Of a stretch of DNA of 41,522 nucleotides, positions 3,095 through 5,011 are shown one piece after another. The DNA comes from Deltaproteobacteria bacterium (GTDB lineage Bacteria; Desulfobacterota; Desulfuromonadia; Geobacterales; Pseudopelobacteraceae): the NCBI GenBank assembly GCA_021779135.1, contig JAJYBH010000013.1, positions 1 through 41,522 of the forward strand, given 5' to 3'. The stretch's first letter is position 1. Every line of letters starts with the position of its first letter. The position numbers and the translations under genes are program-made. Below the pieces are notes generated by a model, which saw only the letters and a list, made by a program, of their open reading frames with translations, had not been told where the DNA came from and ran no database searches.

Positions 3095-3418
3095 TTACTT
3101 CTTCATTGATTTGCGGAAAATATCATCAGCCTTCTTCGCCTTTTCATCTGCGACCTTCGCCTTTTCATCTGCGATTTTTTCCCTTTCCTCTGCCATCTTC
3201 AGGGCATTTTCTGCCCGGGTTGCGGCTGCCTCTGCCTTTAACGTGGCCGCGTCAGCCGCCGCCTTGGCAGCCTGCGCATCCTGCGCCGCCTGGTCAGCTT
3301 TCGCACCAGTCATCATCTGCTGAGACTGAACTTTTTCGAGGTCGCCTCTTGTTGCACACCCCCCCACGGCAATAGCAAGTACAAGCATCGTTGAGGTCAT
3401 CAATAGACTCTTCTTCAT
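3095..3418 (-). CDS. alanine-zipper lipoprotein, Lpp/OprI-like
   Basis: 107 residues. The signal peptide ends in the lipobox VGGC, giving a lipidated Cys near residue 21. The rest is a nearly uninterrupted helix rich in Ala, Lys and Glu with a 3-4 spacing of small residues, as in Lpp and OprI alanine-zipper lipoproteins that trimerise in the periplasm. The protein ends SMKK. In Lpp the C-terminal Lys is the residue joined to peptidoglycan by L,D-transpeptidases, so an anchoring role is a reasonable inference. It lies 22 bp after one L,D-transpeptidase gene and upstream of another, which supports that idea. The sequence is low in complexity, so family assignment rests on architecture rather than on identity. 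Confidence 0.75.
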   Translation of the reverse strand: MKKSLLMTSTMLVLAIAVGGCATRGDLEKVQSQQMMTGAKADQAAQDAQAAKAAADAATLKAEAAATRAENALKMAEEREKIADEKAKVADEKAKKADDIFRKSMKK

Positions 3419-3439: not shown

Positions 3440-4762
3440 CTACAATTTCTTTTTGACAGGTTCAATCAGTCTGCCATCGAGTTCCAGATCTATTTTCAGG
3501 CGTTTGATTGCTTGCCTGGCCTCGGTGACATCATTGAAAGGCCCGGCGACAACGCGGTAGCCGGGGTTTCTTGCTATCACCCTGGCCGGGATTTGCGGTC
3601 CCTGATGGTTGATAATGGCGGCCAGCCTCACGGCATCGGTCTCGTCACGCAGGTCAGCAGCCAAAACAGACCACGCATCTGCTTTCAGTTCCGGAATTTC
3701 GGGGCTGCCGGACAATTTGCCGGGGTGCCTGACTTCCATGGGTTCCGCCACACCTTTTCCCGGTCCTGGCCTGGTTTCGAAGATGGGGACGGGGATCCCC
3801 CTGGCCTCGGCCAATACCTTCTTGACTTTACTCCAGTCGAGCGAGCGCCCTGATTCCTTTTCAACGGCTCTCAGCTTTGCATAGATCCTGTCCATCTCGG
3901 CAGCATCATAGCCTTCCGTGGTCGCATGAACCTCCATGTAAACCACGCCATTGTCCTGACCCACGAGATATGGCTGGTCAACCATGTTTACAGGCGTATT
4001 GGTCGGAGTGTTCTCATAGAGTCTTTTCACGTCTTCCGGATAGAGTCGTATGCAGCCATTGGTGGCCCTCAGCCCGATACTGGCAGGTTTGTTGGTGCCA
4101 TGGATCAGATAACTCGGCCTGCTCAGGTAGAGCGCACATTCTCCCAGGGGATTTAGAGGCCCGGGCGGAATCGAGGCGGGCAGGGGATCCCCTTTTTTCC
4201 GATGATCCTCGGCAATTGAGGCAGGCACATGCCAGGTCGGCCGGTTTACCTTGCGCAAGACATGCATCTGCCCCATGGGCGAGGGCCGCTCTTCGGTGCC
4301 GACACCGACCGGGAAGGTCAGCACTGTCTGTGAGCGGCTGTCTCCCTTGAATTCAAAAAGCCTCATTGCGGCCAGGTTGATCACGATCCCTTTTCTGGGA
4401 GCGTCCGGCAGGATAAAGCTCTGAGGCAGCAGAATGCGTTTTCCGGCCTCGGGCACCCATGTATCTACACCCGGATTGGCGGCGCTGACCCCGTCGATGC
4501 CCAGGCTGAAGTGTCGTGCAATGTCCGGCAGCGTATCCCCCTTTTCAAGACGGATGAAAGCCAACCGGCCGATGACATCATCTCCCTTTGCAACGGAAAA
4601 CTCATTGCGTACGACAGGTTCTTTCAACTGTACGGGATTGGGCTGGTATTCCCTATTTACGATTCTCGTTACCGCACAGCCATTGAGAGCTGAGATAACA
4701 ATAAAAAGGGCTATTAGTCGAAGCGCATTGGAGACGGGTATCAGCTTGACGATTCGGCACAT
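3440..4762 (-). CDS. L,D-transpeptidase with LysM and YkuD domains (ErfK/YbiS type)
   Basis: 440 residues, periplasmic. The N-terminal signal ends in the lipobox ALNGC, so it is a likely lipoprotein. A LysM-like cell-wall-binding segment follows (about residues 70-115, with LEKGDTLPDIARHFSLG). The YkuD catalytic domain spans about 123-262, with His221 in IHGTNKP and Cys237 in ATNGCIRLYP, the complete active site. The C-terminus (about 385-435, GYRVVAGPFNDVTEARQAI) resembles an SPOR domain, which binds denuded glycan. The family makes 3-3 cross-links or tethers Lpp to the wall. It is the first gene after the riboswitch at 4838-4950, so its expression is probably ligand controlled. An AAAGGA ribosome site lies rather far (about 14 nt) from ATG 4762, so the start is less certain than the identity. 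Confidence 0.88.
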   Translation of the reverse strand: MCRIVKLIPVSNALRLIALFIVISALNGCAVTRIVNREYQPNPVQLKEPVVRNEFSVAKGDDVIGRLAFIRLEKGDTLPDIARHFSLGIDGVSAANPGVDTWVPEAGKRILLPQSFILPDAPRKGIVINLAAMRLFEFKGDSRSQTVLTFPVGVGTEERPSPMGQMHVLRKVNRPTWHVPASIAEDHRKKGDPLPASIPPGPLNPLGECALYLSRPSYLIHGTNKPASIGLRATNGCIRLYPEDVKRLYENTPTNTPVNMVDQPYLVGQDNGVVYMEVHATTEGYDAAEMDRIYAKLRAVEKESGRSLDWSKVKKVLAEARGIPVPIFETRPGPGKGVAEPMEVRHPGKLSGSPEIPELKADAWSVLAADLRDETDAVRLAAIINHQGPQIPARVIARNPGYRVVAGPFNDVTEARQAIKRLKIDLELDGRLIEPVKKKL

Positions 4763-4837: not shown

Positions 4838-4886
4838 AAAAAAAGCCGGGTCGCCGAATATCTTTGGATATTTCGGCGACCCGGCT
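4838..4886 (-). terminator. riboswitch-controlled intrinsic terminator
   Basis: A 19-20-bp hairpin with one bulge (4844-4886; arm starts AGCCGGGTCGCCGAA) is followed on the minus strand by seven T residues (4838-4844). Its 5' arm overlaps the 3' strand of the GEMM aptamer, so aptamer folding and terminator folding exclude each other. Confidence 0.88.
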
Positions 4887-4950
4887 GTCTCTAGGAGACC
4901 CTGTAGGCTTTCCGTCCCATTCTCGCGAATGGTTTAGTATTATCGTTTTA
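4838..4950 (-). promoter_or_regulatory. GEMM-I riboswitch, predicted cAG-I (3',3'-cGAMP) subtype
   Basis: Read on the minus strand, 4950-4866 carries the GEMM-I core: AAACC, an AT-rich hairpin capped by a CGCGAG turn, then GGGACGGAAAGCC, a second hairpin (4887-4899) and AGCCGGGTCGCCG. Aligned without gaps to the Vc2 c-di-GMP aptamer over this core, position 47 (stacking A) falls at 4911 and is A. Position 20, which contacts the ligand, falls at 4938 and is A instead of the G of c-di-GMP aptamers. A20 is the known mark of the GEMM-Ib/cAG-I class found in Geobacter. The 3' part of the aptamer is also the 5' arm of the terminator, so ligand binding should prevent termination and turn on the L,D-transpeptidase operon. 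Subtype and ON logic are inferred. Confidence 0.9.
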
Positions 4951-4982
4951 CCACGGTATTGTATTGTGCTTTATAGGCGGAC

Positions 4983-5011
4983 ATTCTTGCCACAACGGGG
5001 ATGCTTGTCAA
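4983..5011 (-). promoter_or_regulatory. candidate sigma-70 promoter of the riboswitch-transpeptidase operon
   Basis: A perfect -35 TTGACA (5006-5011) is separated by 17 nt from AAGAAT (4983-4988), a 4/6 match to the -10 box. Transcription would begin a few bases further on, about 25-30 nt before the aptamer. The -10 is weak, so this is tentative. Confidence 0.5.

Follow-up and report, generated by a model that had tools for sequence, protein, structure and literature searches.

A predicted 3',3'-cGAMP-type riboswitch precedes a putative lipoprotein-tethering operon in a member of the Geobacterales

The window, i.e. the whole stretch of 41,522 nucleotides that was analysed (contig JAJYBH010000013.1, positions 1 to 41,522), comes from a deltaproteobacterial genome of the Pseudopelobacteraceae (Geobacterales). 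On its minus strand lies a riboswitch followed, in the 3' direction, by three genes in the order LDT1, Lpp-type lipoprotein and LDT2. LDT1 (3440-4762) is a lipoprotein (Cys29) with a YkuD domain (PF03734, 75.2 bits) and a SPOR domain (PF05036, 40.2 bits). The second gene (3095-3418) encodes an alanine-zipper lipoprotein of the Lpp/OprI family (NCBIfam NF040598, 59.9 bits, cut-off 43), with a VGGC lipobox and the C-terminus IFRKSMKK, which ends in KK. LDT2 (1904-2983), probably also a lipoprotein, combines BamD/TPR-like repeats with a DpaA-like YkuD domain (PF03734, 68.5 bits). A P-II-like small protein is encoded on the same strand at 1269-1628, 275 bases downstream of LDT2.

Rfam covariance searches of the window revealed a single match, to the c-di-GMP-I (GEMM-I) family RF01051, at 4948-4872 of the minus strand. 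The match scores 44.7 bits (E 1.1e-5; gathering score 35 bits) and covers the full length of the model (1-87), as expected from the initial annotation, which had placed a GEMM-I aptamer on this strand and proposed a search with the Rfam model as its check. The P2 stem is formed by 4932-4927 with 4922-4917 and P3 by GGGUCUC/GAGACAGCC. When the aptamer was mapped by hand onto Vc2, the equivalent of G20 was A4938 and that of A47 was A4911, the two assignments made at the outset. The G21-C46 pair of Vc2 is swapped to C4937-G4912, and the equivalent of C22 is a U (4936), paired with the equivalent of G45.

The ligand contacts named for the 3',3'-cGAMP riboswitch are G8, A9, A11, A12, A14, C15, G40, A41, A42 and C75 (PMC6274999). 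Hand mapping onto that numbering gave an identical base at all ten (G4944, A4943, A4941, A4940, A4938, C4937, G4912, A4911, A4910 and C4876, respectively), of which C4876 is the ligand-pairing C. Position 20 (A14 of the crystal structure), where an A in place of G marks GEMM-Ib aptamers, is A4938. On these residues the aptamer very probably belongs to the GEMM-Ib (3',3'-cGAMP) class, in line with the class first proposed for it.

A decayed aptamer that no longer switches, upstream of a constitutive operon, was also considered. There is one copy of the aptamer here and there are two in many relatives, and in the window's lineage the counterpart of the A-U73 pair of P3 is A-C, a mismatch at the base of P3 that counts against the cGAMP reading as well. 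Decay is known at one related locus: in a Deltaproteobacteria MAG (CSP1-8) the aptamer before LDT1 (L090:825-911, 30.3 bits) retains only its 3' half intact. The full-length Rfam match, the intact pocket and the near-identical aptamers in sister genomes argue against decay in the window, as does the perfect 14-bp terminator arm that overlaps the aptamer and is followed by U7, and we consider decay very improbable. Among 24 aptamers the pairs of P1a and P2 are kept at 99-100%, many with changes on both sides, and the 12-37 pair shows a clean swap between C-G and G-C (15:9); the covariation score was 0.487, compared with 0.198 after shuffling. A pattern of the aptamer-type core was found in 36 of 39 related genomes and in none of the reversed controls. 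Only 10 base pairs were captured by the first covariance model, which was retained because of its strong sequence signal.

Folding revealed an intrinsic terminator (4838-4885, minus strand), which a terminator-pattern scan had missed owing to a one-base bulge. Its stem (4885-4845) pairs 4885-4872 and 4870-4867 with 4862-4845 (14 pairs, the bulge and 4 pairs) and is followed by UUUUUUU (4844-4838). The 5' arm 4885-4872 lies within the aptamer, where it serves as the 3' strand of P3 and includes the ligand-pairing C4876, so that the overlap of terminator and aptamer described in the initial annotation was recovered. The two folds are mutually exclusive; the terminator alone is predicted at -33.8 kcal/mol and the whole aptamer at -20.3 kcal/mol. 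In a folding ladder the aptamer was the best structure for transcripts that ended before the terminator's 3' arm; once this arm emerged, the terminator was far ahead.

Upstream of the aptamer is a promoter-like site, TTGACA-17-AAGAAT (4983-5011, minus strand), with the -35 box at 5011-5006 and the -10 box at 4988-4983; position 5011, one end of the interval originally annotated, is the start of the -35 box. The site matches the consensus at 10 of 12 positions, a level that chance would produce about once in the region, making it weak evidence when taken alone. TTGACA also occurs upstream of the aptamers at two other loci (L060 and L061).

The pilM (Gm0970) cGAMP riboswitch of Geobacter metallireducens has been measured to be an ON switch in which C75 is sequestered by a terminator (PMC9262584). 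The window riboswitch resembles it in the A20 pocket and in the sequestration of the ligand-pairing C, and the overlapping terminator together with this precedent leads us to predict a transcriptional ON switch. The two differ in their targets, which are pilus genes for pilM, and in that binding and switching were measured for pilM whereas the window riboswitch is known from sequence and folding. Without ligand, the leader RNA would adopt the terminator, the 3' strand of P3 and its ligand-pairing C would be taken from the aptamer, and transcription would end at 4838. With 3',3'-cGAMP bound, the aptamer would retain the contested strand and the polymerase would continue into LDT1-Lpp-LDT2.

The catalytic residues of LDT1, H221 and C237, and R239 at position Cys+2, are invariant in 18 relatives; Arg at Cys+2 is seen in many LD-transpeptidases (PMC10653827). 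In LDT2 the motif DWTKGCIAVT has, at Cys+2 from C328, an Ala (A330, in CIA) that corresponds to Ala145 of DpaA. The Lys in GPKERQGD is invariant and aligns with Lys83 of DpaA, whereas Tyr131 of DpaA has no kept equivalent. By sequence the nearest solved structure is 8IKR, which is DpaA. The NCBIfam DpaA equivalog scores 47.1 bits on LDT2, below its cut-off of 365, and all 28 members of the LDT2 family match the DpaA model far below this cut-off. In the AlphaFold model of LDT2 the catalytic loops are predicted with low confidence and the Foldseek matches are generic L,D-transpeptidases, not DpaA, so the fold neither supports nor excludes a DpaA-like reading. The Lys is also common to LD-carboxypeptidases and thus indicates the hydrolase branch, not DpaA specifically. 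LDT2 is probably a hydrolase-type member of the YkuD family (DpaA/LD-carboxypeptidase-like) rather than a second transpeptidase. The original assignment of the operon to L,D-transpeptidases and an Lpp-like lipoprotein stands for LDT1 and the lipoprotein and is revised for the third gene, whose Ala at Cys+2, invariant Lys and nearest structure (8IKR) point to a hydrolase-type YkuD protein.

The C-terminal Lys is kept in every Lpp found adjoining LDT1. In E. coli, Lpp is bound to peptidoglycan through its C-terminal Lys. By analogy of residues, and with less certainty than for the riboswitch, LDT1 would attach the Lpp-like lipoprotein, through its C-terminal Lys, to peptidoglycan, and LDT2 would cut or trim the resulting links; a connection between the riboswitch and wall tethering is plausible. 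It is quite possible, even if we lean away from it, that the riboswitch is real and the operon acts in 3-3 cross-linking or in general repair of the wall instead of Lpp tethering. LDT1 scores nearly equally on the models of LdtE, a cross-linker, and of other E. coli Ldt proteins, all far below their cut-offs, and its SPOR domain suggests peptidoglycan. What speaks for tethering is the Lpp/OprI lipoprotein, with its kept C-terminal Lys, whose gene separates the two YkuD genes in every operon-type locus.

The E. coli set of Lpp, LdtA/B/C and DpaA, of which DpaA detaches Lpp, shares with the window a YkuD transpeptidase, an Lpp-like lipoprotein with a C-terminal Lys and a YkuD protein nearest DpaA (PMC10653827, PMC8263019). 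It differs in that the window genes lie in one riboswitch-controlled operon, a SPOR domain is present in LDT1, BamD/TPR-like repeats are present in LDT2, which has no equivalent of Tyr131, and both LDT1 and LDT2 are far below the cut-offs of the E. coli equivalogs. With LDT2 probably of the hydrolase type, the effect on tethering could go in either direction.

A first search of 58 genomes of the order revealed full-length LDT1 (58-77% identity) in 23, the window's genome included, and a second search found it in many Geobacteraceae as well. All 42 operon-type LDT1 loci in the Geobacterales have one or two aptamers just upstream, whereas none was found at more distant or paralogous LDTs outside the operon (L062-L068 and L168-L173). 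The LDT1-Lpp-LDT2 operon also occurs in named genomes of the Nitrospirota, Desulfobacterales and, reordered, Syntrophales among the matches listed; covariance searches of these listed operons revealed no aptamer, and 14 of the loci were also negative with Rfam. Methylococcaceae homologues of LDT1, among the matches listed, have neither an aptamer nor the Lpp and LDT2 genes. The order LDT2-LDT1-Lpp is found in Syntrophales and related bacteria (L087, L092, L097, L101, L104, L109-L112 and L124), and the three genes thus travel together even when shuffled.

Among the matches listed, LDT1 of several Nitrospirota MAG loci (L069, L071, L073, L080 and others) is about 73-79% identical to that of the window, above most Geobacter copies, and these loci have no aptamer. 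Such aptamer-free operons close to the window's could reflect horizontal transfer or mis-binned MAG contigs. In the LDT1 tree the window groups with the copies from Nitrospirota, in a clade separate from the main one of the Geobacteraceae. Forcing all aptamer-bearing rows into one clade gave a tree that was 62.85 log units worse (p-AU 0.037), a result from one quick tree with a group named after the tree was seen; it is a hint that aptamer and operon were repeatedly paired or lost.

An alternative concerns the ligand: the aptamer may not be strongly selective for cGAMP over c-di-GMP. Both ligands are bound by the same fold and Rfam family (RF01051), and position 20 is a selectivity factor and not a hard filter: the omcST riboswitch, which has A20, answers both cGAMP and c-di-GMP (PMC6456294). 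Three relatives have a G20 aptamer before LDT1. A20 is present, however, in 94 of 97 readable aptamers at the operon-type and named loci, the other three having G20 (some records occur in both sets), so that it is kept in nearly all aptamers before the operon while the window's genome retains four G20 aptamers elsewhere. All pocket residues are those of the cGAMP riboswitch, and characterised A20 aptamers of Geobacter are about 1200- to 1600-fold selective. Poor selectivity for cGAMP is on this evidence unlikely. The G20 (c-di-GMP-type) aptamers before LDT1 include L098:4833-4910 (the same as locus L162) and L159:4-80. The first of these is in tandem with an A20 aptamer, an arrangement that could constitute a two-signal gate.

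The genome contains nine RF01051 aptamers, typed by hand as five A20 and four G20. A tandem A20 pair (G000:C65:429-645; L008 and L009) lies ahead of the gene for a PT-repeat protein that has a single CxxCH haem motif and calls PgcA to mind; this fits the known cytochrome targets of such aptamers.

Many canonical diguanylate cyclases are encoded in the genome, and the one Hypr candidate is of the Thr type, a further point in favour of c-di-GMP as the ligand. Among the 19 GGDEF matches in this 98%-complete draft no Ser-type Hypr GGDEF protein or Ser-type GacA was found. The candidate, G000:C91 (L188/L193), is a membrane GGDEF protein (GHLAGT...RYGGDEF) with Thr in place of Asp at the selectivity position and an intact GGDEF motif; Thr was present in 18 of the 18 orthologues found. 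Ser or Thr at this position is given as a Hypr variation (PMC9140294), and GSU1937, the second cGAMP synthase of Geobacter sulfurreducens, has likewise been described with an N-terminal transmembrane domain. The Thr-type proteins are a candidate, putatively Hypr-type, cyclase family. A SMODS (CD-NTase) match just above its cut-off (G000:C217:4102-4506, L211; 31.9 bits) marks a possible second maker of cyclic nucleotides and was considered as a putative further source of cGAMP.

Although the initial annotation implied that the target of the riboswitch was new, the same type of operon has been reported under GEMM-Ib control. In G. sulfurreducens the 'lipoprotein transpeptidases' GSU0181-0183 form an operon downstream of a GEMM-Ib riboswitch, and their expression is down 16-fold when gacA, the gene of the cGAMP synthase GacA, is deleted (PMC6456294). 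GSU0182 is annotated as a murein lipoprotein (PMC11934962) and is so listed in two transcriptome papers. The riboswitch class, the lipoprotein-transpeptidase operon with a murein lipoprotein and the predicted positive control by cGAMP are common to both loci, and the order GEMM-Ib aptamer, YkuD lipoprotein, murein lipoprotein and YkuD protein is present in the window and its relatives; the putative homology to GSU0181-0183 rests on their published description. The window locus is a further instance, in a little-known relative, of the riboswitch-operon pairing published in 2019. The present analysis adds, all by sequence, a survey of conservation, the retention of the C-terminal Lys, a probable division of the YkuD proteins into transpeptidase and hydrolase types and the Thr-type Hypr candidate.

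A more far-reaching proposal is that cGAMP controls a complete make-and-break tether module (transpeptidase, Lpp-like lipoprotein and DpaA-like hydrolase) and that such operons acquired cGAMP aptamers at least twice within the Geobacterales, in one case in an operon lineage that also occurs in the aptamer-free Nitrospirota. Taken as a whole, this proposal is tentative and we regard it as rather doubtful.

The pairing of riboswitch and operon is conserved across the Geobacterales. In G. sulfurreducens it ranks with the strongest reported cGAMP-dependent responses, yet the product of GSU0181-0183 has so far been called only 'uncharacterized lipoprotein transpeptidases'. cGAMP had at first been connected with surface growth; the published phenotypes of G. 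sulfurreducens connect it with brief contacts between cells and Fe(III) particles and not with electrode biofilm growth (PMC6456294). In the window's organism, cGAMP would raise the capacity to build and remodel tethers between outer membrane and wall during contact with extracellular electron acceptors. If this is true, cGAMP would adjust the firmness of these ties on contact with metal oxides, and signalling from electron acceptors would be linked to the mechanics of the envelope.
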